Below are positions 7,836 through 16,527 of a stretch of DNA of 21,573 nt, piece after piece; positions within the stretch are counted from its first letter, which is position 1, and the number at the start of each line of letters is the position of its first letter. Under the pieces are notes generated by a model, which saw only the letters and a program-made list of their open reading frames with translations, ran no database searches and was not told the DNA's origin. Made by a program: the position numbers and the translations under genes. The DNA comes from a virus: the IMG/VR virus record IMGVR_UViG_3300025308_000096, positions 1 through 21,573 of that record, one strand, 5' to 3'.

Positions 7836-7892
7836 GTCAAGCCCGATGACTCGGGCGGGAGGAGACGAAATGCGGATTACATGGGTGGAGGC

Positions 7893-7954
7893 GGGTCATT
7901 CCAGCGGGATAGAATCGATTTTCCACGATCTCAACTATTCGAAAGGAATGACCC
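7893..7954 (+). repeat. 62-bp leader repeat, copy 1
   Basis: This leader directly precedes the zinc-ribbon gene and is matched by 8298-8359 with about five differences in 62 bases; both copies end exactly at the next start codon. In this copy the ends form a perfect 10-bp inverted repeat, GGGTCATTCC (7893-7902) and GGAATGACCC (7945-7954). Its 3' arm overlaps the ribosome site AAAGGA, so the RNA could hide the start. No convincing promoter was found inside it, although GATAGAAT is a possible -10. Confidence 0.75.
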
Positions 7955-8164
7955 ATGAACACGCTCAAATTCGCCTGCAAGCACTGCGGCAATCAGGAGT
8001 TCAAGTTCCCCCGCGAACCCCAGCCGACAGACGAGGTGACTTGCGCCGGATGTGGCCGGACAGCTCTCTACGCGGACATCCAGGCCGCCGCCCTCGACCA
8101 GGGAAAGAATGCGGTAGCCGATCTGATGAGCAAGACCTTCGGGAGCGCGTTCAAGCGCCGCTAG
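7955..8164 (+). CDS. Small zinc-ribbon protein (69 aa), ECs_2282-like
   Basis: A 69-residue protein with two CxxC pairs, CKHCGNQEF near residue 9 and CAGCGRTALY near residue 30, which should bind one zinc ion. The C-terminal helical tail GKNAVADLMSKTFGSAFKRR is typical of the small putative zinc-binding proteins found in prophages (ECs_2282-like). The start ATG has AAAGGA upstream. A 104-codon frame on the opposite strand (7931-8245) overlaps it fully and is judged a shadow. The gene is carried on the plus strand between leftward cro and cII, so it would be antisense to any leftward early transcript. Its exact function is unknown. Confidence 0.75.
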   Translation: MNTLKFACKHCGNQEFKFPREPQPTDEVTCAGCGRTALYADIQAAALDQGKNAVADLMSKTFGSAFKRR

Positions 8165-8290: not shown

Positions 8291-8297
8291 ATTGGGA

Positions 8298-8359
8298 GGG
8301 TCATTTCAGCGGGATAGAATCGATTTTCCACGATCTCAACTACCCGAAAGGAACGAACC
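8298..8359 (+). repeat. 62-bp leader repeat, copy 2
   Basis: Second copy of the leader at 7893-7954, with the same length and the same distance to the start codon. The central 36 bases are identical; changes cluster near the gene and in the 5' arm. The flanking inverted repeat that is perfect in copy 1 is damaged here, so any start-hiding RNA hairpin would be weaker. The ribosome site AAAGGA is kept. Confidence 0.75.
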
Positions 8360-8605
8360 ATGGCCGAAGAAATTGCCACGCTACCCATCGCAGGATGGGA
8401 GCTGAAGACCGTGCCAGCACTCGACGCGCTGCTCATCACGTTTTCCTACCTGTCGCACCCAACGCAAACGCCTGCAGAAGCGGTGACGGATCGCACCTAC
8501 ATCCTTCACAGTGCCCTGGCTCGAGAATTTGCACAGCGAATACTCGCAGCACTCGACCGGATGGAATCCGGTGTACCTCACGGAAGCGGACTTCCGAAGC
8601 ACTGA
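8360..8605 (+). CDS. BssS-like small protein (81 aa)
   Basis: An 81-residue protein. The N-terminal half has LPIAGWELKTVPALDALLIT followed by FSYLSHPTQTP, which matches the pattern GW-(D/E)-x-x-TV-x-x-x-DAL of E. coli BssS, a small protein linked to biofilm and indole signalling. The C-terminal LAREFAQRILAALDRMESG also parallels the BssS helix. I infer family membership from this pattern; the phage role is unknown. It has the same leader as the zinc-ribbon gene and sits between two copies of the cro 3' end, which marks it as an acquired cassette. The ribosome site AAAGGA is 7-8 bases upstream of the ATG. Confidence 0.65.
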   Translation: MAEEIATLPIAGWELKTVPALDALLITFSYLSHPTQTPAEAVTDRTYILHSALAREFAQRILAALDRMESGVPHGSGLPKH

Positions 8606-8625: not shown

Positions 8626-8838
8626 CTATGCCGCCTCCTGGTGGAGTTCGGGCGCCGTATCGCTGGCGCCGACTTTCTCAAATACGTCCGGACGGGCCAG
8701 CTTCAAATACATCATGCGCGCCTGCGGGATGCCATCGCGCCGCCACTGGGAAACTGCTCCCGGACTGGTATTGCACAACCTGGCTGTTGCGCCAGTCCCG
8801 CCCAAATTGTCGATTACGGTGTTCGCTTCGATGTCCAT
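8626..8838 (-). CDS. Cro-like HTH regulator (YdaS type)
   Basis: A 70-residue protein with helix-turn-helix TARLCNTSPGAVSQWRRDG around residues 18-36, preceded by VIDNLGGTGA. It then carries IPQARMMYLKLARPDVFEKV and a divergent tail ending APELHQEAA. This matches the small YdaS/Cro-like proteins divergent from phage repressors. I chose the ATG at 8838. A TTGAAT-N17-TAAATT promoter ends at 8846, so transcription should begin at or within a base or two of the A of this ATG, giving a leaderless message, and no ribosome site is visible. An upstream frame start at 8913 would run through the operators into the repressor gene and is rejected. Confidence 0.8.
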   Translation of the reverse strand: MDIEANTVIDNLGGTGATARLCNTSPGAVSQWRRDGIPQARMMYLKLARPDVFEKVGASDTAPELHQEAA

Positions 8839-8845
8839 GAAGCCG

Positions 8846-8874
8846 AATTTAGCACACTCAATCCCACAATTCAA
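8846..8874 (-). promoter_or_regulatory. Leftward promoter of the cro-like gene
   Basis: On the minus strand -35 TTGAAT (8869-8874) and -10 TAAATT (8846-8851) are 17 bases apart. The -10 lies in the element GCTAAATT, which is also the -10 element of the rightward DGR operon promoter at 10070-10077. The predicted start coincides with the A of the cro ATG at 8838, so the transcript would be leaderless. Confidence 0.65.
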
Positions 8875-8899
8875 CAAGCTAAATACAAAAAGATTTAGC
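8847..8899. promoter_or_regulatory. Operator elements between cro and the repressor
   Basis: Three copies of GCTAAAT or its complement ATTTAGC lie at 8847-8853, 8878-8884 and 8893-8899. The last two form a perfect dyad GCTAAAT-N8-ATTTAGC just upstream of the repressor start. The first overlaps the -10 box of the cro promoter. They are likely binding sites for the repressor and/or Cro. Confidence 0.65.
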
Positions 8900-8907
8900 C
8901 TACTGCT

Positions 8908-9330
8908 ATGCAACTCGAAAATGACTTTTCAACCTTCGCCGGCAGATTCACGTGGGCCGTTTCGAATATGACCGGAACGCAGGAGCAACTCGCGACCGCC
9001 ATGGGCGCGTCACCCGGCGTCATCACGCAATGGAAATCCGGGCAAACGCAGAACTTTGACGCCGTCAAGGTAATCAAGGCCGCCCAATTCCTCAATGTGG
9101 ATGTCGAGTGGCTGGTACTCGGTGACGGAACACCTGAGCGCATGCGAAAGACCTCGCTGCATATGGCGCAGATTGTCGACAGCCTGCCCAGGGAACCACG
9201 CCAGCAGACACTGGATTTCATCTCCTACCAAATCACAAAATCCGAAGCGCTGATGACGGGTGAAAAGGGCGCCCACTATCACAAGATGATCGAGGAAATC
9301 ATCCAGGACATGAAACACAGAAATCAATAG
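8908..9330 (+). CDS. HTH repressor (CI-like, no peptidase domain)
   Basis: A 140-residue protein. A helix-turn-helix of the XRE type occupies about residues 22-60 (GTQEQLATAMGASPGVITQW, then KSGQTQNFDAVKVIKAAQFL and VDVEWLVLGDG). The rest is helical (MAQIVDSLPREPRQQTLDFI, then KMIEEIIQDMKHR). It is divergent from the cro-like gene and overlies the operator region, so it is the likely prophage repressor. It lacks the C-terminal LexA-like autocleavage domain of lambda CI, so RecA-dependent self-cleavage is not expected. Induction may need an antirepressor or another signal. No good ribosome site is seen 5' of the ATG. Confidence 0.82.
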   Translation: MQLENDFSTFAGRFTWAVSNMTGTQEQLATAMGASPGVITQWKSGQTQNFDAVKVIKAAQFLNVDVEWLVLGDGTPERMRKTSLHMAQIVDSLPREPRQQTLDFISYQITKSEALMTGEKGAHYHKMIEEIIQDMKHRNQ

Positions 9331-9375
9331 ACGATTGGCGTACCATTGACGGCTCATCGTTTGGGAGATAGCAAC

Positions 9376-9693
9376 ATGGCCTCTTTTGGGATTATTCACT
9401 GGCTCATCGTCGCCGCCATCGTTTTCCTGGTCGTCAAGCCCTTCCTGCCTTCCGATCGCCGCACGATGATCTGCCCTTCCTGCGGTAGTCGAGGCCCGGC
9501 GAAAATTCAGGTGCGCGGTTCCATCTGGATCGAAATCATCCTTTGGCTCATGTTGATCGTCCCCGGCCTGATCTACAGCATCTGGCGCCTGACCACCAAG
9601 CGCCCGGTGTGCGTGCAGTGCGATCAACCGGGCATCATCCCGATCGCCACTCCGCGCGGCGCCGAACTGGCCGCCAAGTTCTCACCGTCATGA
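9376..9693 (+). CDS. Membrane protein with split zinc-ribbon (105 aa)
   Basis: A 105-residue protein with an N-terminal hydrophobic helix (GIIHWLIVAAIVFLVV, about residues 5-21), a CPSCG motif near 36, a second hydrophobic helix (WIEIILWLMLIVPGLIYSIW, about 54-73) and a second CVQC motif near 83. The two Cys pairs could close into one zinc ribbon on the cytoplasmic side, with the helices forming a hairpin. Similar small membrane proteins are common, but no function is assigned. The start ATG has GGGAGA seven bases upstream; an earlier in-frame start at 9346 is less likely. Its stop overlaps the start of the next gene (ATGA). It follows the repressor by 45 bases and may be lysogen-expressed. 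Confidence 0.7.
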   Translation: MASFGIIHWLIVAAIVFLVVKPFLPSDRRTMICPSCGSRGPAKIQVRGSIWIEIILWLMLIVPGLIYSIWRLTTKRPVCVQCDQPGIIPIATPRGAELAAKFSPS

Positions 9694-9983
9694 TGTCGCG
9701 GCTGGTCGCTGCGATTCTCGTCGCGACATTCGCCACCATTGCTCCAAGCATCGAGGCGAAGCAACACCGCAGCACCGCCGTCAAGAACGCCTTCAAGATC
9801 ACCCACCCCTGCCCTGCCAACGACCGCCGCCGCGGACCCTGCCCAGGGTATGTCATAGACCACATCATCCCTCTCTGCGCCGGCGGGCCGGATGCCACAA
9901 GCAATATGCAGTGGCAAACCATCGCCGCAGGAAAGATCAAGGACAAAACCGAGATCCTCAGCTGCCGCAAACGCCGCACATAA
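9690..9983 (+). CDS. Exported HNH endonuclease (97 aa)
   Basis: A 97-residue protein with a likely Sec signal peptide (MMSRLVAAILVATFATIAPS, then IEAK; predicted cut after about residue 23). The mature part has HPCPANDRRRGPCPGYVIDH, continuing IIPLCAGG, with D-H-I-I-P-L as the HNH catalytic start, and then SNMQWQTIAAGKIKDKTE as the N and final part. Similar small HNH proteins with a leader are frequent in prophages. A periplasmic nuclease in a lysogen might act on incoming or external DNA, but this is inference. Its ATG overlaps the previous stop by four bases, and the next ATG (9693) is an alternative start. Confidence 0.78.
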   Translation: MMSRLVAAILVATFATIAPSIEAKQHRSTAVKNAFKITHPCPANDRRRGPCPGYVIDHIIPLCAGGPDATSNMQWQTIAAGKIKDKTEILSCRKRRT

Positions 9984-10126
9984 CACGCGACCACAGCATC
10001 GCGGCAACGGGAATTCACACGGCAAAGGTTCATCCAGCTAAATATTTCTTGACTTGCTTCGTTTAGTTCGCTAAATTTCTCCATCGCCGGCAACTCACCG
10101 CCGAATTTCAACCGATGGAGGCACTC
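9984..10126 (+). promoter_or_regulatory. Promoter and operator region of the DGR operon
   Basis: This 143-bp gap contains a sigma70 promoter: -35 TTGACT (10049-10054), 17-base spacer and -10 TAAATT (10072-10077), with a predicted start near 10084. GCTAAAT occurs at 10037-10043 and again at 10070-10076, overlapping the -10. Just before the latter, GTTTAG (10061-10066) makes a small dyad with CTAAAT. These are the same elements as in the cro/repressor operators. The leader to the first DGR target is about 43 bases and ends in GGAGG. Confidence 0.72.
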
Positions 10127-10516
10127 ATGACCCACCCCGCAATCCCCGTCCCCGCCCTCAACACAGGCGAAACCTACGTCGGCGCGATCATCAGCGCCTG
10201 CGGCACTTACAGCCATCACACGATCCTGCTGCCCGGCGATCACGACGATGCCAACTGGAATGCCGCCATGGACTGGGCAAAGTCGCTCGGCGGCGACCTA
10301 CCCAACCGCATCGAACAGTCCCTGCTCTTCGCCACGCTGAAGGACCAGTTCAAGCGCGACTGGTACTGGTCGAACACGCTACACGCCTCCGCCGCGAGCT
10401 ACGCCTGGTGTCAGTACTTCATCATCGGCCTCCAGTACGACTACCTCATCCTCACCCAGTGCCGCGCCCGGGCCGTCCGCAGATTGCCGATTCAGCCCTT
10501 TAACAATTTGCCTTGA
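10127..10516 (+). CDS. DGR target protein 1 (CLec/DUF1566-like, 129 aa)
   Basis: A 129-residue protein homologous over its length to the two other targets (11898-12278 and 12315-12698). Shared segments are GETYVGAII, HTILLPGDHDDANWNAAMDW, then DLPNRIEQSLLFATLKDQFK, RDWYWSNTLHAS and the final RARAVRRL. This order, ending in a diversified stretch with Trp and Tyr residues, fits a C-type-lectin-fold domain of the DUF1566 kind. Residues 86-119 are encoded by the variable repeat at 10383-10484. I chose the ATG at 10127 with GGAGG five bases upstream; the upstream ATG at 10115 contains that ribosome site. It has no signal peptide, membrane helix or extra domain, so it is the binding domain alone. 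Its ligand is unknown. Confidence 0.88.
   Translation: MTHPAIPVPALNTGETYVGAIISACGTYSHHTILLPGDHDDANWNAAMDWAKSLGGDLPNRIEQSLLFATLKDQFKRDWYWSNTLHASAASYAWCQYFIIGLQYDYLILTQCRARAVRRLPIQPFNNLP
10383..10484 (+). repeat. DGR variable repeat 1 (VR1)
   Basis: These 102 bases align without gaps to the template at 13236-13337. By hand there are 14 differences, all at template adenines: for example TAT to TGT, AAC to TAC, AAC to ATC, AAC to CTC. The 3' 27 bases, from AGTGCCGCGCC through CGCAGAT, are identical in all copies and form the initiation region for mutagenic homing. The repeat ends four bases before the target diverges. Confidence 0.95.
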
Positions 10517-10530
10517 CGGCAGGCCAGGCC

Positions 10531-10743
10531 ATGACCCGCCACAGCGCCCACCAACAGCTCGTCGAAGCCCGCCAGATCGCGCGCGATCACGGCCTGATCC
10601 TGTTCGAAAAACCCGTCGAGCCTGGCAAGACCAGCTACATCGTCTATCGCAAATTACCCGAAGGCCGCAAGACCTTCCTTGGAAAACGCGGCACTCCCGA
10701 AGGCGTGCGCGCCTACGTCGCCAAGCTCGCCAACTTCCACTAG
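10531..10743 (+). CDS. Small phage protein (70 aa), unknown
   Basis: A 70-residue protein with HSAHQQLVEARQIARDHGLI followed by LFEKPV, then SYIVYRKLPEGRKTFLGKRG and a short helix GVRAYVAKLANFH. The N-terminal helix-strand pattern EARQIARDHGLILF resembles EAHRIAKTAGMYLV of the next gene, so the two may be distant relatives. No function is known. The ATG at 10531 was chosen; a TTG at 10513 would overlap the end of DGR target 1. It is the second gene of the rightward operon. Confidence 0.65.
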   Translation: MTRHSAHQQLVEARQIARDHGLILFEKPVEPGKTSYIVYRKLPEGRKTFLGKRGTPEGVRAYVAKLANFH

Positions 10744-10751
10744 GAGCTGCC

Positions 10752-10958
10752 ATGTCCGCCATCGCCCTGTATCCTGGACTCACCCTGCTCGAAGCCCACC
10801 GCATCGCCAAGACCGCCGGCATGTACCTGGTCAGCGATGGCCACGATGTCCGCATATCGCCGATCATCCTTCCTGGCTGGCGCGAAGTGCCGATGGTCGT
10901 CAAGATCACCGCGCCGGATCGTGGAAACGTCTGCACTGGCGAGCGGGTGGCGGCATGA
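10752..10958 (+). CDS. Small phage protein (68 aa), unknown
   Basis: A 68-residue protein beginning MSAIALYPGLTLLEAHRIAK, with TAGMYLVSDGHDVRI, then WREVPMVVKITAPD and a Cys in RGNVCTGERVAA. AGGAG lies six bases upstream of the ATG. The stop overlaps the next ATG. The segment EAHRIAKTAGMYLV resembles the N-terminal part of the preceding small protein, which suggests an old duplication. There is no recognised domain. It is part of the operon between DGR targets 1 and 2. Confidence 0.65.
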   Translation: MSAIALYPGLTLLEAHRIAKTAGMYLVSDGHDVRISPIILPGWREVPMVVKITAPDRGNVCTGERVAA

Positions 10959-11251
10959 ATCCGGCGTCGGAAAAATGGGCCTACGCCTACCTCAAGACCC
11001 TGGGCGCCGCCCTTGCCCTGATCATTCTCATCCTCGGCGCGCAAGGCTTTGCTGACCGCATCGAGCGCAACACCGAAGACCGCCTGGCGTACCAGCGCTG
11101 GGTGGCAGACGCCTGCATACCCGTCCGCGAAGGCCAGCGCGCGGTCGCCACGCATGACGGCGCCCGGCTGCGGTGCACCATCTACAGCACCTACGAGCGC
11201 GGCCTGGTGCCGGTCGTCGTCAGCGCCGCCGTGATGGAGGTGCCGCAATGA
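10955..11251 (+). CDS. Single-pass membrane protein (98 aa), unknown
   Basis: A 98-residue protein with a hydrophobic helix at about residues 12-31 (KTLGAALALIILILGAQGFA), preceded by a short basic N-terminus and followed by a mostly polar domain with Cys residues (VADACIPVREGQRA, LRCTIYSTYERG). The likely topology is N-in with the C-terminal domain outside the cytoplasm, where the two Cys could pair. The ATG overlaps the previous stop by four bases and the stop overlaps the next ATG (ATGA). It has no known family. It is the only membrane protein between the first two DGR targets. Confidence 0.68.
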   Translation: MNPASEKWAYAYLKTLGAALALIILILGAQGFADRIERNTEDRLAYQRWVADACIPVREGQRAVATHDGARLRCTIYSTYERGLVPVVVSAAVMEVPQ

Positions 11252-11874
11252 GCCGGCCGCCCATCGCCCGTGACAAGCTCGTCCGCCACATCTGCGGCCT
11301 CGGCAGCGACAAGAACGGCAACCCGATCAGCATCCGCACCGCCGACCTGGCGACGGCCTGCGACGTTGCGCCTGGATCGATCCAGGCGATGTTATCCGGC
11401 CCGGTCGCCGCGGGCGAAATCTATGTCTGCAAAGTCACCCCGCCAAGCGGCCGAGCGTTCAACGAATACCGCAAGGGCAGCGGTCAAGCCGCCCCGGAAT
11501 TCAAGCCGCTCGACACCAGGCGCGCGGGCATCGCACTCTGCACCGCAGACCAAAAGCCGCGCCCGAGCACGATCAACAAGCCCCAGCCGGCGGTGGGCAA
11601 CAACACCGGCAGCACGCGACCGGACCCTGCCTCCGCCGGTGAGCGTGCCGTTGCTGCCGCCAAAGCAACGCCGAAGCCCGCAGCGCGCGACCGGCTGAAA
11701 GAAGAGCCGGCGGCGACCAAGGCTTCGGCGGGTGACGTCTTCACCATCACGATCGACGACACCGGCGTGCTGATCATCGGCACCGATGAAGGCGTCATCA
11801 AACTGCAACCCAAACAATGCCAGCGCCTCGGCCACTTCCTGGTCGGCTCGCAAGGCATCTGGAATCCCTTCTGA
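11248..11874 (+). CDS. Putative DNA-binding phage protein (208 aa)
   Basis: A 208-residue protein. The N-terminal 75 residues look like a winged helix: RDKLVRHICGLGSDKNG, TADLATACDVAPGSIQAMLS, and a strand-turn-strand YVCKVTPPSGRAFNEYRK. A low-complexity Ala/Pro/Lys linker (about 85-155) leads to a small C-terminal domain, DVFTITIDDTGVLIIGTD, then VIKLQPKQCQRLGHFLVG. This build is seen in small phage regulatory proteins, but I cannot name a family. The ATG overlaps the previous stop. It lies 23 bases before DGR target 2, so it may regulate the operon. That is inference from the helix-turn-helix and position. Confidence 0.68.
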   Translation: MSRPPIARDKLVRHICGLGSDKNGNPISIRTADLATACDVAPGSIQAMLSGPVAAGEIYVCKVTPPSGRAFNEYRKGSGQAAPEFKPLDTRRAGIALCTADQKPRPSTINKPQPAVGNNTGSTRPDPASAGERAVAAAKATPKPAARDRLKEEPAATKASAGDVFTITIDDTGVLIIGTDEGVIKLQPKQCQRLGHFLVGSQGIWNPF

Positions 11875-11897
11875 CCCACCCACCCCTGGAGAACACC

Positions 11898-12278
11898 ATG
11901 CCCGATCGCACCATCAGCATCCCTGCCGCACAAATCACCCTCGCCGACGAAGAACTCTACGCCGGCATCATCCTCAATGACGACGGCACGCCCAGCCATC
12001 ACCTGGTGCTGCTGCCTGGCGATCATGAAGACACCGAATGGAATGCCGCCGTCGAGTGGGCCAAGAGCATCAACGGCGAACTGCCGACCCGTCGCGAACA
12101 ATCGCTCCTGTTCGCCAATTGCAAACAGCATTTCGAAAAAGACTGGTACTGGTCCAACACGCTACACGCCTCCGACGCGAGCTACGCCTGGTGTCAGGGC
12201 TTCTACGGCGGCAGCCAGAACTACGACCACGTCGACGGCCAGTGCCGCGCCCGGGCCGTCCGCAGATTGCCCATTTAG
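11898..12278 (+). CDS. DGR target protein 2 (CLec/DUF1566-like, 126 aa)
   Basis: A 126-residue homologue of target 1. It shares LYAGIILNDDGTPSHHLVLL, then PGDHEDTEWNAAVEWAKSI, ELPTRREQSLLFANCKQHF and KDWYWSNTLHASDASYAW. The variable part reads CQGFYGGSQNYDHVDGQ before RARAVRRLPI. TGGAGA is eight bases upstream of the ATG. The last 34 or so codons are encoded by the variable repeat at 12166-12267. No signal peptide or membrane segment is seen. It is closest in sequence to target 3 just downstream, 36 bases after its stop, and the two look like a tandem duplication whose variable surfaces have since diverged by mutagenic homing. Confidence 0.88.
   Translation: MPDRTISIPAAQITLADEELYAGIILNDDGTPSHHLVLLPGDHEDTEWNAAVEWAKSINGELPTRREQSLLFANCKQHFEKDWYWSNTLHASDASYAWCQGFYGGSQNYDHVDGQCRARAVRRLPI
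12166..12267 (+). repeat. DGR variable repeat 2 (VR2)
   Basis: 102 bases aligned without gaps to the template. Thirteen differences were counted by hand, all at template adenines, including AAC to GGC (three times), AAC to TAC, AAC to GAC and ATC to GTC. One AAC codon is unchanged. The 27-base 3' segment is identical to the template. Confidence 0.95.
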
Positions 12279-12314
12279 TCCTTCGTCCATTTATTCATTC
12301 TCAGGAGCGTCAAC

Positions 12315-12698
12315 ATGAAACCATCGGAACTCAAAGCCAAATATCTCGCGTCCAACCTCAAGAAAGGCGAGGCCTACGCCGGCCTGATCCTCGGCAAAAA
12401 CGGCGAGCCGGACTACCACCTGGTGCTGTTGCCGGGTGAAGCCAGCGCCGTCAATTGGGCGAATGCCAAGGCCTTCGCCAAGAAAGCCGGCGGAGAACTG
12501 CCCAATCGTTGCGAGCAGTCCCTACTCTTCGCCAATCTCAAGGAAGAATTCAAGGGCGACTGGTACTGGTCCAACACGCTACACGCCTCCGACGCGAGCT
12601 CCGCCTGGTGTCAGGGCTTCAGCTTCGGCACCCAGCTCAGCCGCCACATCGGCAGCCAGTGCCGCGCCCGGGCCGTCCGCAGATTGATTAGTTCTTAA
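12315..12698 (+). CDS. DGR target protein 3 (CLec/DUF1566-like, 127 aa)
   Basis: A 127-residue homologue of targets 1 and 2. It has KKGEAYAGLILGKNGEPDYH, LVLLPGEASAVNWANAKAFA, ELPNRCEQSLLFANLKEEFK and GDWYWSNTLHASDASSAW, then the variable CQGFSFGTQLSRHIGSQ and the end RARAVRRLISS. AGGAG is eight bases upstream of the ATG. The variable repeat occupies 12583-12684. The Avd-like gene starts 19 bases after its stop. It has no export signal, so like its relatives it is probably cytoplasmic unless it is carried on the virion or released by lysis. Confidence 0.88.
   Translation: MKPSELKAKYLASNLKKGEAYAGLILGKNGEPDYHLVLLPGEASAVNWANAKAFAKKAGGELPNRCEQSLLFANLKEEFKGDWYWSNTLHASDASSAWCQGFSFGTQLSRHIGSQCRARAVRRLISS
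12583..12684 (+). repeat. DGR variable repeat 3 (VR3)
   Basis: 102 bases aligned without gaps to the template, with 16 differences counted by hand, all at template adenines, for example TAC to TCC, AAC to TTC, AAC to CGC and AAC to GGC. It is the most diverged of the three copies. The 3' 27 bases are identical to the template. Confidence 0.95.
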
Positions 12699-12717
12699 TT
12701 TAACCCTTTCACTCAGC

Positions 12718-13071
12718 ATGGCCCTGCACACACAACTGCCGATTTACAAGGTCGCCTACGACCTGCTCGACATCGTCACCGATCTCGTCAAGAACATGCC
12801 GCGCGACTTCAAGCAAAGCATCGGCGGCAAGATCGGTGCGGAATGCGTCGAGATCGTGGTGCTCATCTTCCGCGCCAATTGCGCGCGGGAGAAAGCGCCG
12901 CACCTGGTGGATCTGATCGAGCGCCTGCAGGTAGCCGAGTTACTGATTCGGCTCTCCTGCGACAAGCGCCTGATCTCCAAGGCCCAGTACGCCCGGGCCG
13001 TGGAACTCACCAACAGCATCGGCAAGCAGGCCAACGGATGGCGTAAATCCGCAGCCTCGCCCGCTGCATGA
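12718..13071 (+). CDS. avd: DGR accessory variability determinant (Avd-like)
   Basis: A 117-residue, mainly helical protein: LPIYKVAYDLLDIVTDLVKN, MPRDFKQSIGGKIGAECVEI, VVLIFRANCAREKAPHLVDL, ERLQVAELLIRLSCDKRLI, and NSIGKQANGWRKS at the end. Four amphipathic helices and a basic C-terminus match the Avd four-helix bundle, which forms a pentamer that binds the reverse transcriptase and template RNA and is needed for mutagenic homing. Location is decisive: it lies between the last target and the template repeat, as in the Bordetella phage DGR. No strong ribosome site is seen before the ATG. Paralogous S23-type four-helix proteins are the alternative, but the context favours Avd. Confidence 0.88.
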   Translation: MALHTQLPIYKVAYDLLDIVTDLVKNMPRDFKQSIGGKIGAECVEIVVLIFRANCAREKAPHLVDLIERLQVAELLIRLSCDKRLISKAQYARAVELTNSIGKQANGWRKSAASPAA

Positions 13072-13216
13072 CGGTCATGGCCATCATGCCTGTGCGAATG
13101 ATCAATCTGGTCGCGCCGCTGCCCCACGAGGGCACCGCCATGCGCATCACGGAGACCGCTGGCAGCGCGCCGGAAAGGTCCGGCGCAGTTTCCCCGTCGA
13201 GCGATCGGCAGGGCGA

Positions 13217-13238
13217 CGTCGATAGTGCGACATCGACG
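13217..13238 (+). other. Hairpin at the 5' edge of the template repeat
   Basis: CGTCGAT (13217-13223) and ATCGACG (13232-13238) form a perfect 7-bp stem with an eight-base loop. It overlaps the first bases of the template repeat. It could shape the template RNA or mark its 5' end, but this is inference from position. Confidence 0.45.
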
Positions 13239-13337
13239 CCTCCGACGCGAGCTACGCCTGGTATCAGAACTTCAACAACGGCAACCAGAACAACAACCAC
13301 ATCAACAACCAGTGCCGCGCCCGGGCCGTCCGCAGAT
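13236..13337 (+). repeat. DGR template repeat (TR)
   Basis: This 102-base segment is the adenine-rich master copy. Read in the targets' frame it has nine AAC codons between the invariant TGG and TGC codons, the codon that can yield many amino acids but no stop when its adenines change. All 43 differences seen in the three variable repeats fall on its adenines. The shared 3' end stops at AGAT: the template continues GATCC while the targets continue TG. The repeat has no gene of its own and is transcribed between avd and the reverse transcriptase. Confidence 0.95.
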
Positions 13338-13373
13338 GATCCATGCCATCCGGCTGATTTTTCTTTTTCTGAC

Positions 13374-14447
13374 TTGGTTGAAGCCTACTTCGACTGTCGG
13401 CGCACCAAACGCAACAGCGCCAGCGCGCTCGCCTTCGAGCAGCAACTGGAGCGCAACCTCGGCACGCTACACGATGAACTGACCGAGGGCATCTACCGCC
13501 CCGGCCCGTCGATCTGCTTCGTCATTACCCGGCCCAAAGTGCGCGAAGTGTGGGCCGCCGCGTTCCGCGACCGCATCGTGCACCACCTGCTCTACCGCAA
13601 GATCGGCCCGCGTTTCGAGGCCAGCTTCATCGCCGACTCCTGCGCCTGCATCCCCGGACGCGGCACACTCTACGCAGCCCGTCGTCTCGACGCCAAGGTC
13701 CGCAGCCAGACACAAAACTGGCAGCGCCCAGGCTACTACCTCAAGCTCGACCTCGCCAACTTCTTCGTCAGCATCGACAAGCGCATCGTCGCCGAGCAGT
13801 TGGCCAGCCGCATCAGCGAGCCCTGGTGGCGTCAGCTCGCACTCGATATCCTGTTCCACGACCCACGCCAGAACGTCGTCATTCAGGGCCGTCCTGACGA
13901 GTTCGCGCGCGTTCCGCCACACAAGAGCCTGTTCAACCAGGACACGCACCACGGCCTGCCGATCGGCAACCTCAGCAGCCAGTTCTTTGCCAACGTCCTG
14001 CTCGACGCACTCGACCAGCACATCAAGCACGACCTCATGGCGCGCCATTACATCCGCTACGTCGACGACATGCTGCTGCTGCACGAATCCCCCGACTGGC
14101 TCAACCAAGCCAGGGCCGACATCGAGGCCTGGCTGCCAGCACATCTGCACCTGACCCTAAATCCGCACAAGACCATCCTGCAGCCGATCGACCGCGGCAT
14201 CGACTTCGTCGGCCATGTGATCCGTCCCTGGCATCGCACCCTGCGGCGGCGCACCTATCACGATGCCCTGCGCCGTGTCGCCACGATGCCGGCCGCTGAT
14301 CTGTTCCACACCGCCAACAGCTATTTCGGACTGTTGCGGCAAACCACCCACAGCCACGCCGACCGGGCAAGGCTGGCCAACCTGCTCCGCGATCGTGGCC
14401 ACACGATCAACGGAGATATCACCAAAACTTACCGGAGATCCACATGA
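13374..14447 (+). CDS. DGR reverse transcriptase
   Basis: The reverse transcriptase copies the template RNA, inserting wrong bases opposite adenines, and the cDNA replaces the variable repeats. Visible motifs are YLKLDLANFFVSIDK near residue 123, GLPIGNLSSQFFANVLLDAL near 194 with the GxxxSQ feature that sets DGR enzymes apart, and the catalytic YVDDMLLL near 229, followed by LNPHKTILQ and GIDFVGHVIRPW. The N-terminus LVEAYFDCRRTKRNS aligns with LLDAYRKTS of the Bordetella enzyme. There is no in-frame ATG after the template, so I chose TTG 13374 (about 357 aa). The frame is open back to 13068, but that would translate the template as Thr-rich low complexity. Its stop overlaps the ParB-like ATG. 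Confidence 0.93.
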   Translation: MVEAYFDCRRTKRNSASALAFEQQLERNLGTLHDELTEGIYRPGPSICFVITRPKVREVWAAAFRDRIVHHLLYRKIGPRFEASFIADSCACIPGRGTLYAARRLDAKVRSQTQNWQRPGYYLKLDLANFFVSIDKRIVAEQLASRISEPWWRQLALDILFHDPRQNVVIQGRPDEFARVPPHKSLFNQDTHHGLPIGNLSSQFFANVLLDALDQHIKHDLMARHYIRYVDDMLLLHESPDWLNQARADIEAWLPAHLHLTLNPHKTILQPIDRGIDFVGHVIRPWHRTLRRRTYHDALRRVATMPAADLFHTANSYFGLLRQTTHSHADRARLANLLRDRGHTINGDITKTYRRST

Positions 14448-16306
14448 ACGCACCCGAATCGCACACCCTACTGATCCCGCTCACCAGCATCATTCAGTCG
14501 TCGAGCAACCCGCGCAAACACTTCGACCAGGCCAAGCTCGACGAGCTGGCCGTCAGCATCAAGACCCACGGCGTGCTGCAGCCGATCCTGGTGCGCGCCT
14601 GGCAAGTCGGCATGGCGAATCCGAAGCATCGTCCCATGGTAGAAATGATAGGCATCTACGAGATCGTCTGCGGCGAGCGGCGCTGGCGCGCCAGCCAGAT
14701 CGCCGGCATGGATACCATCCCCGCCATGGTCCGCGAACTGACCGACAAGGAAGTGCTGGAGCTGCAGGTTGTCGAAAACCTGCAACGCGAAGACGTGCAT
14801 GAGCTGGAAGAAGCCGAAGGCTACGAGCGGCTGATGAAGTACCACGACTACACCGCCGATAGCCTGGCTGAGAAGATCGGCAAAAGCCGCGCCTACATCT
14901 ACGCCCGTCTCAAGCTCACCGCCCTGGCGCCGGCCGCGCGGGATCTGTTCTATGAAGGCAAGCTCACCGCCAGCACCGCGCTCCTGATCGCCCGCATTCC
15001 CGGCACCACGCTGCAGATGCAGGCCGCCACTGATATCACCAAGCCCGACTGGAAGGGCGACGTGATGGCCACCCGCGCTGCCGCCGACCTGATCCGGCGG
15101 GCCTACACGCTGGACCTTGAAGATGCCAGCTTCAAGACCGCCGACGCCGCCCTGGTGCCCAAGGCCGGCAGCTGCGACGCCTGCCCAAAGCGCAGCGGCA
15201 ACGACCTGATCCTGTTCGCCGACATTGGCGATCCAGACGTCTGCACCGATCCGTCCTGCTTCCAGAACAAGAAGGAGGCGAACTACCTGCGCCTCAAGGC
15301 GCTCGCCGAAAAGAGCGGCAAGGAAATCTGCAGCGGCAAGGAAGCCGCCGAAATGCTGGTCAATGGCCGGCACAGCCTGGACAAGTTCAACCTGGCCAAC
15401 ATCGACGACATCTGCTACGACGACGAGCAGCACCGCACCTATCGCACCATCCTCGGCAAAGCGGCGCCGGCCATTACCCTGGTCGAAAATGCCCGCGACA
15501 AAATCTTCGTCGAAACCGTCGACACCAAGCTGCTCGCCATTGCCCTGAAGAAAGCCGGCGTCGCCAAGCCGACGATCAAGACCGACCGCGCCGACGTCAA
15601 TCATCAGAAAGAACACGCCGCGCGCGAAGCCAAGGCCAAGGCAGAAAACACCTGGCGCGGCAAACTATTTCAGGAAATCCGTCTCAAGCTCGGCGAACGC
15701 TTTGCCGCAAATACCTTCGACGAAACCGATCTGCGCCAGATTGTCCGAGAAGTATTCCGGCAACTCGCCGACACCGGCAACCGCGGAATCGATGAAGTAT
15801 CGACGCTCTGGAACCTCGACACCACCTACGACGACGAAGACGACTGGCTGAAAGCGCTTGATGAATTCTTCGGCAAGCTCACCATGCCGGGGCTGTGGCT
15901 GTTCATGACGGATATAGCGCTGATCGAGGACACCTGGGTTGCCCCGTGGGCGTACAACAGCACAGTCGAGCCAACGCCACAGCTTCTGCTCGCCCAGGCC
16001 GCGCGGCTCGGCATCAACGCCGAAGCCCTGCGCGAACCTCTGCCGAACTCTGCCAAAGTGCAGCCCAAAACTGCAAAATCGAAGGCGGCGAAACCCGTTT
16101 CTACCCCTGCCGATGCTGCGCATGCGGGAGTCAAAGGCGCGACGGCTGCGCCGGCCGATAATGCAAAGCCGGTCCTGAAGCCCACGGCGAAAAAAGCCAA
16201 AGCCAAGGCAAATCCAGCGCCGTCTTCGACGGCGAACGAGCCGGCTGCGCCGGCAAAAACCACCGCGATGGCACCGTGGCCATTCCCAACCGGAGCGCAG
16301 GTGTGA
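14444..16306 (+). CDS. ParB-like partition/DNA-binding protein
   Basis: A 620-residue ParB/RepB/Spo0J-type protein. The N-terminal domain has SSSNPRKHFDQAKLDELAVS, IKTHGVLQPILVRAW and the CTP-binding motif GERRWRASQIAGMD near residue 78, then VVENLQREDVHELEEAEGY. A helix-turn-helix follows (DSLAEKIGKSRAYIYARLKL). The middle contains a Cys cluster (CDACPKRSGND, CTDPSCF) that may bind zinc. The end is an Ala/Pro/Lys-rich tail. No ParA gene is in the window, so a role in partition is doubtful; regulation or nuclease-like activity on DNA is possible. The ATG overlaps the RT stop (ATGA), which places it in the DGR operon. Confidence 0.85.
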   Translation: MNAPESHTLLIPLTSIIQSSSNPRKHFDQAKLDELAVSIKTHGVLQPILVRAWQVGMANPKHRPMVEMIGIYEIVCGERRWRASQIAGMDTIPAMVRELTDKEVLELQVVENLQREDVHELEEAEGYERLMKYHDYTADSLAEKIGKSRAYIYARLKLTALAPAARDLFYEGKLTASTALLIARIPGTTLQMQAATDITKPDWKGDVMATRAAADLIRRAYTLDLEDASFKTADAALVPKAGSCDACPKRSGNDLILFADIGDPDVCTDPSCFQNKKEANYLRLKALAEKSGKEICSGKEAAEMLVNGRHSLDKFNLANIDDICYDDEQHRTYRTILGKAAPAITLVENARDKIFVETVDTKLLAIALKKAGVAKPTIKTDRADVNHQKEHAAREAKAKAENTWRGKLFQEIRLKLGERFAANTFDETDLRQIVREVFRQLADTGNRGIDEVSTLWNLDTTYDDEDDWLKALDEFFGKLTMPGLWLFMTDIALIEDTWVAPWAYNSTVEPTPQLLLAQAARLGINAEALREPLPNSAKVQPKTAKSKAAKPVSTPADAAHAGVKGATAAPADNAKPVLKPTAKKAKAKANPAPSSTANEPAAPAKTTAMAPWPFPTGAQV

Positions 16307-16527
16307 TCGCGCAAACCGCCATCCTGATCCTGTCTGCCGTGGCGCTGTGGTTGCTCTCCTGCACGCCGCCCAGCCGCTGGGGCTGGGCGGTCGGCCTGGC
16401 CAGTCAGCCCTTCTGGCTGACCGAGACCTGGCACGCCGAGCAGTGGGGCATGTTCGCCAACGCCCTGGTGTTCACCGCCATCTATCTGCGCGGCATGGTC
16501 AATCACTGGACGCCAGCCCATGGATGA
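16303..16527 (+). CDS. Small two-helix membrane protein (74 aa)
   Basis: A 74-residue protein with a hydrophobic segment at about residues 4-20 (QTAILILSAVALWLLS) and a second at about 45-62 (WGMFANALVFTAIYLRGM). Between them is WAVGLASQPFWLTETWHAEQ, a Trp-rich loop that recurs in small phage membrane proteins. A holin is possible but not supported by a neighbouring endolysin. The start is a GTG with GGAG seven bases upstream, and it overlaps the ParB-like stop (GTGA). It overlaps the next gene by eight bases. Confidence 0.7.
   Translation: MIAQTAILILSAVALWLLSCTPPSRWGWAVGLASQPFWLTETWHAEQWGMFANALVFTAIYLRGMVNHWTPAHG

Follow-up and report, generated by a model that had tools for sequence, protein, structure and literature searches.

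A predicted lambda-type immunity region shares its operators with the early promoter of a DGR operon in a temperate phage

The window, that is, the whole 21,573-bp stretch of IMG/VR virus record IMGVR_UViG_3300025308_000096 analysed here, carries a divergent cro/repressor pair and a DGR (Table 1). On the plus strand, the repressor gene is followed by two small genes, the DGR promoter, three lectin-like targets, Avd, the template repeat (TR), the reverse transcriptase (RT), a ParB-like protein and a serine integrase. The minus strand bears lytic-side genes, among them a D5-type primase, terminase and portal as judged from ORF translations. The ParB-like protein (620 aa, 14444–16306) lies directly after the RT. 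Differences between the variable repeats (VRs) and the TR sit mainly at template adenines (15 of 18 in VR1, 14 of 16 in VR2 and 17 of 22 in VR3), indicating that the DGR of the window is genuine.

The initial annotation had proposed a 70-aa Cro-like protein and a 140-aa repressor on either side of an intergenic gap, and both were confirmed by family matches (Table 1). The Cro-like protein further matched a DNA-binding protein family (phrog_8008, E = 6.5e-12), and the repressor gave an RstR/DicA-like match below the cut-off. The two genes diverge from a gap of 69 bp, with HTH families on both sides. A family search of the 140-aa repressor returned HTH families only and no S24 cleavage domain, and a search for close homologues of this protein in IMG/VR, 399 genomes of one order and phage records yielded only distant HTH matches. 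The promoter predicted for the cro-like gene can be read directly in the sequence, and TG precedes its −10 box. This −10 box ends 7 bp upstream of the ATG (8846 to 8838); with the predicted start and the −10 so near the ATG, the cro-like mRNA may be leaderless. In lambda, the leaderless mRNA is that of cI, transcribed from pRM.

Table 1 Features of the immunity region and the DGR operon, in window coordinates.
Feature	Position	Strand	Details
Cro-like regulator gene, 70 aa	8626–8838	−	ATG at 8838; P22_Cro E = 2.7e-6 and YdaS E = 5e-4, both below curated cut-offs
pR-type promoter (predicted) of cro-like gene	8846–8874	−	TTGAAT (8874–8869), 17 bp, TAAATT (8851–8846)
Gap operator (predicted) ATTTAGCACACTCAAT	8847–8862	none	11/12 to ATTTAGNNNNCTAAAT, joint best of window; on −10 side of cro promoter
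Gap operator (predicted) ATTCAACAAGCTAAAT	8869–8884	none	10/12; 22 bp from 8847–8862 site; over −35 of cro promoter
Third gap operator (predicted, weak) ATTTAGCCTACTGCTA	8893–8908	none	8/12; 24 bp from 8869–8884 site
Immunity repressor (CI-like), 140 aa	8908–9330	+	HTH_3 E = 2.3e-6; phage transcriptional repressor families
Upstream DGR-promoter operator (predicted, OL2-type) GTTCATCCAGCTAAAT	10028–10043	none	9/12; rank 5 of all positions with gap-only matrix
pL-type promoter (predicted) of DGR operon	10049–10077	+	TTGACT (10049–10054), 17 bp, TAAATT (10072–10077)
Downstream DGR-promoter operator (predicted, OL1-type) GTTTAGTTCGCTAAAT	10061–10076	none	11/12; rank 3 of all positions with gap-only matrix
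Leader inverted repeat CTCCATCG...CGATGGAG	10079–10120	+	5' leader; would pair Shine-Dalgarno of target 1
DGR target 1	10130–10516	+	start inferred, ORF open from 10115; VR1 10383–10491; Lcl_C match below cut-off
DGR target 2	11892–12278	+	VR2 12166–12274; Lcl_C E = 6e-7, below cut-off
DGR target 3	12315–12698	+	VR3 12583–12691; Lcl_C match below cut-off
Avd accessory protein	12718–13071	+	bAvd E = 3.8e-14; phrog_3206 E = 3.7e-34
DGR template repeat (TR)	13236–13344	+	repeat family D2; A-biased differences vs three VRs
DGR reverse transcriptase	13335–14447	+	RVT_1 E = 3e-15; phrog_1423 E = 4e-116; ORF open from 13068, true start uncertain

Five GCTAAAT elements had been reported in the initial annotation, three in the cro/repressor gap and two before target 1, together with a TAAATT −10 box and a 17-bp spacer in both places. 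All five coordinates and both promoters were borne out. GCTAAAT (or ATTTAGC) occurs at 8847–8853 (−), 8878–8884 (+), 8893–8899 (−), 10037–10043 (+) and 10070–10076 (+) and nowhere else in the 21,573 bp; the extended form GCTAAATT has two copies, at 8846–8853 (−) and 10070–10077 (+). Dinucleotide shuffles of the window contained 0.87 copies of GCTAAAT on average and three at most, and 0 of 100 reached five.

Both operator stretches are AT-rich within a phage of 62% GC, and TAAATT is the −10 box in each. GCTAAAT might accordingly be a chance, promoter-like word that only seems shared because both places hold a −10 box, and the earlier annotation had itself considered that the motif could be common by chance across the host genome. 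Within the window and in local shuffles, which control for local AT-richness, this is not the case: the three copies in the gap stretch (8839–8907) were matched in 0 of 200,000 shuffles and the two copies in the DGR-promoter stretch (10020–10085) in 21 of 200,000, ruling out a chance AT-rich word. Moreover, the match is a 16-bp palindrome whose second half falls outside the −10 box, and other phages have quite different words common to both places, such as TACAAA-N4-TTTGTA, AGCCAT-N2-ATGGCT and ACCC-N6-GGGT. We regard coincidence as extremely unlikely.

On sequence grounds, GCTAAAT is the half-site of a larger unit, the 16-bp palindrome ATTTAG-N4-CTAAAT. The frame of this palindrome was picked with all five sites known, and four of the five fall within the window's five best matches to ATTTAGNNNNCTAAAT (9/12 or better). 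When a matrix derived from the gap trio alone was run over ~21,500 positions, the DGR-promoter pair took the top two ranks outside the gap. Two of the five sites are weak, namely 8893–8908 and 10028–10043; the former has one perfect half-site and a weak right half, and reaches one base into the repressor gene. The two stronger gap sites cover the cro promoter on its −10 and −35 sides, respectively. At the DGR promoter, the two operators are 33 bp apart, and the downstream one lies over the spacer and the −10 box, its centre at about −16 from the predicted start, as in relatives.

The DGR promoter lies ~0.7 kb past the end of the repressor gene and points in the same direction. TTGACT-17-TAAATT is the sole sigma-70-like match within 9300–16500, and a search of the plus strand over the same interval found no terminator-like sites. 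These features argue for a lambda-type OR/OL immunity region with the DGR in a pL-type early operon, in which the five predicted operators would serve the immunity repressor, and probably Cro, and the CI-like repressor would repress the DGR operon. We assign this reading a probability of roughly 0.87.

Under such an arrangement, the gap trio would form an OR-type array, and the sites at 10028–10043 and 10061–10076 an OL-type pair on the pL-type promoter. This promoter would drive an early operon running from target 1 to targets 2 and 3, avd, the TR and the RT, toward the integrase. In the prophage, repressor bound to both operator sets would shut off cro and the DGR operon, the downstream site acting over the spacer and −10 box and the upstream site against the −35 box. 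Upon non-immune infection or loss of repressor, the DGR operon would fire with the early lytic genes, so that the targets and the diversification machinery would be made as phage DNA replication begins; Cro would later lower both the cro and the DGR promoters. Because the repressor sites sit on the sole predicted promoter of the DGR cassette, the dormant phage probably keeps targeted diversification off, and infection or induction would switch it on.

Either of the two HTH proteins encoded beside the gap may bind these sites; lambdoid Cro and CI use common operators. The shared sites could thus serve mainly Cro or another phage regulator, with the DGR operon tuned during the lytic cycle rather than silenced in the prophage. 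However, operators in a gap between divergent regulators normally serve both proteins, and the DGR-promoter sites overlap the promoter alike in dozens of phages, as described below. Control mainly by Cro or another regulator is unlikely in our judgement, and we retain repression by the CI-like protein as the main reading.

To extend the analysis to related DGR loci, RT relatives were taken from IMG/VR, GTDB genomes and phage records, and HTH genes were identified with iterated phmmer. A divergent pair upstream of the RT was taken as the candidate switch, giving 65 loci. All palindromes with 6-bp half-sites that had two or more copies around the gap were then searched for as closely spaced pairs in the stretch from the repressor gene's end to the DGR, and the highest total was set against those from 60 dinucleotide shuffles of that stretch. 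In 56 of the 65 loci, the window among them, the locus's own gap palindrome gave a pre-DGR pair unmatched by any of the 60 shuffles. The palindromes vary by phage and include, besides those given above, TTAGGC-N2-GCCTAA, ATAAGC-N2-GCTTAT and CTACAA-N6-TTGTAG. Removal of near-duplicates left 60 loci, and in this non-redundant set a control stretch on the cro side equalled the DGR-side score in just 2 of 53. When gap motifs were matched to the DGR sides of other loci, the own locus was strictly best in only 25 of 60, at least in part because some phages have similar operators, which makes cross-locus matching a weaker control than the shuffles or the cro-side stretch. The motif of the window, for example, also fits the early promoters of Cruim01 (L009) and L143.

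The geometry of the sites was compared in 55 non-redundant loci for which at most 4 of the 60 shuffles were as good. The distance from OR to OL ranges from 0.76 to 3.1 kb, and the two OL sites are mostly 21–26 or 31–35 bp apart. TTGAC is present at OL in 35 of the 55 loci (3.9 expected), and a promoter matching at least 9 of 12 positions in 37 of 55, compared with 2% of random stretches. Targets lie between OL and the RT in all 55 loci and between OR and OL in none; a target-like ORF begins less than 200 bp from the OL pair in 17 loci, as it does in the window. Where a good promoter was called, the downstream operator of either spacing class is centred at about −16.5 from the predicted start (interquartile range about −17 to −16). 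The position of the upstream site depends on the spacing: it is −41, on the −35 box, at 21–28 bp, and −50, clear of the −35 box, at 31–35 bp. The 33-bp spacing of the window belongs to the minority class. The sites picked at L007, L050 and L153 depart from this geometry and may be wrong.

Such identical placement of differing operators on an early promoter is what selection for repressor control predicts. The predicted OR/OL layout with a DGR is general in related phages and not peculiar to the window. The central proposal of the initial annotation, that shared operators link the repressor or Cro to the DGR operon, is thereby supported by comparative anatomy across dozens of phages with differing operators. 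From the sites, their spacing and promoter overlap, the continuity of the operon and a layout conserved while the operators change, we infer protein binding here, the sign of control, and the timing of mutagenesis with its effect on diversification.

The sign of control could in principle be the opposite, the repressor activating the DGR promoter so that diversification takes place in the lysogen. In the window and in other long-spacing phages, the upstream site is at about −48 to −50 and leaves the −35 box free, and it might play an activating part, since the 33-bp class puts it at −50. The hankyphage DGR, from another phage type, is also reported to show mutagenesis in lysogen cultures (PMC12135933). 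Yet the downstream site, at about −16 over the spacer and −10 box in both classes, should block polymerase, and silencing of the CI-like repressor (RepC-HP) in this Bacteroides phage increased the level of most phage transcripts and triggered DGR activity (PMC12135933). Activation by the repressor is therefore very unlikely, and the hankyphage is better seen as a functional precedent for repression, although it is transposable and Mu-like, and its DGR targets a tail fibre. The accessible part of that paper describes no shared OR/OL operators at its DGR promoter (PMC12135933).

The two nearest DGRs, in loci L011 and L010 (RTs 89% and 90% identical to that of the window, respectively), each have their own shared motif. 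The motif of L011, ACCC(A/G)-N4-TGGGT, is found in the gap as ACCCAACTATGGGT and ACCCATACATGGGT and at the early promoter as ACCCGTTTATGGGT and ACCCGTTTTTGGGT, around TTGACA. For L010, reading of the sequence revealed sites based on ACCTTTGG at both the gap and the early promoter, which the automatic scan had missed (53 of 60 shuffles equal or better). The leader of L010 just past the promoter is 88% identical to 10080–10130 of the window, whereas the promoter and operators differ, suggesting that immunity specificity changes right at the operator. As no close homologue of the window's repressor was found in the collections searched, operators could be compared across immunity types only.

The region shares with lambda- and P22-type immunity regions the divergent cro/repressor pair, a multi-operator gap with 22–24-bp spacing, a further operator pair at a codirectional promoter past the repressor, and a pL-side early operon that ends at the integrase. 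It differs from them in that a DGR with three targets replaces or precedes the customary genes for recombination and host takeover in the early operon, in the 33-bp distance between its OL sites, and in its repressor of 140 aa, in which no cleavage domain was found by family search. Lambda CI and P22 C2 are repressors with a RecA-stimulated self-cleavage domain. With no such domain in the window's repressor, SOS induction via RecA-stimulated self-cleavage is unlikely here, and an antirepressor or some other cue would be needed to trigger induction. Across the 55 loci, repressor length ranges from 100 to 295 aa, with 19 below 170 aa. The short repressors probably lack a self-cleavage domain despite the same OR/OL layout, so the induction trigger must differ between phages.

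Similar to the DGR of Bordetella phage BPP-1, that of the window comprises an RT, Avd, template and variable repeats, and adenine-directed differences. The target in BPP-1 is a tail tropism determinant (PMC11792537), whereas the window encodes three small stand-alone lectin-like proteins in a predicted repressor-controlled early operon. The operators predicted at the DGR promoter would make the targets early gene products, which calls into question the default view of such targets as tail receptors. More tentatively, the lambda-like temperate phages of Beta- and Gammaproteobacteria may include a large group in which the immunity repressor controls the DGR as an early module. The hypervariable targets would then be early effectors at work in a cell just infected or induced, directed for instance at factors of the host or of rival phages, and not virion receptor-binders, and diversification would be limited to the replicative phase. 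We consider this broader view possible, and clearly less probable than the OR/OL reading itself. The timing of phage DGR activity has been described as comparatively little studied (PMC11792537). A recent reconstitution led to the suggestion that DGRs might use heavy lytic-phase replication (PMC12875486).

Burkholderia phage Magia has the same order of cro, C2-like repressor, lectin-fold targets, Avd, RT and integrase, and a palindrome, ATAACC-N2-GGTTAT, common to its gap and early promoter. It differs from the window in operator sequence and in the placement of target 2, avd and the RT, which lie ~6 kb farther along and are preceded by recombination genes and an annotated terminator. With a terminator in this position, some phages may need antitermination or another promoter for those genes. 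The accessible part of the Magia announcement lists cro, a C2-like repressor and a potential DGR, without mentioning operators or linking these features (PMC7883833). Our search found no description of OL/pL control of a DGR, or of a DGR with shared operators, in the literature covered, which was that available without subscription. Each part is of a known kind, and the combination, a DGR in a predicted repressor-controlled early operon of many temperate phages, appears to be undescribed in that literature. If the main reading is true, a whole class of phages would have target expression and diversification coupled to their lysogeny switch, and a simple rule would be at hand for finding the operators of each. 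The idea is testable in the cultured phages Magia and Cruim01, whose shared operators were found here.

Besides the operators, we observed a potential mRNA hairpin at the start of the early operon in the window, in L010 (6746–6790) and in the 5' leaders of relatives, where it would pair the Shine-Dalgarno sequence of the first gene. Among the early-operon leaders of 56 loci, a Shine-Dalgarno sequence was found in 37, and at least three of its bases were paired in 29. The stems vary in sequence (CTCCATCG/CGATGGAG, TCCGTT/AACGGA and TTTCTCCCG/CGGGAGAAA), and the median folding z-score of the leader hairpins is only −0.75.

Repeated elements were also seen on the cro side. Minus-strand ORFs, including that of the Cro-like protein, share a C-terminal tail (E-L/P-HQEAA) encoded by repeated DNA, GCCTCCTGGTGG(A/G)GTTCG. 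This repeat was found only in the window (8249 and 8633) and its two closest relatives (L010 at 4947 and L011 at 3755). In addition, two small plus-strand ORFs are preceded by near-identical copies of a leader of ~65 bp (GGTCATT..AGCGGGATAGAATCGATTTTCCACGATCTCAACTA..CGAAAGGAA), at 7890–7957 and at 8295–8362, the latter overlapping a promoter-like site. Similar leaders are present in L010 near 4115 and 4672.
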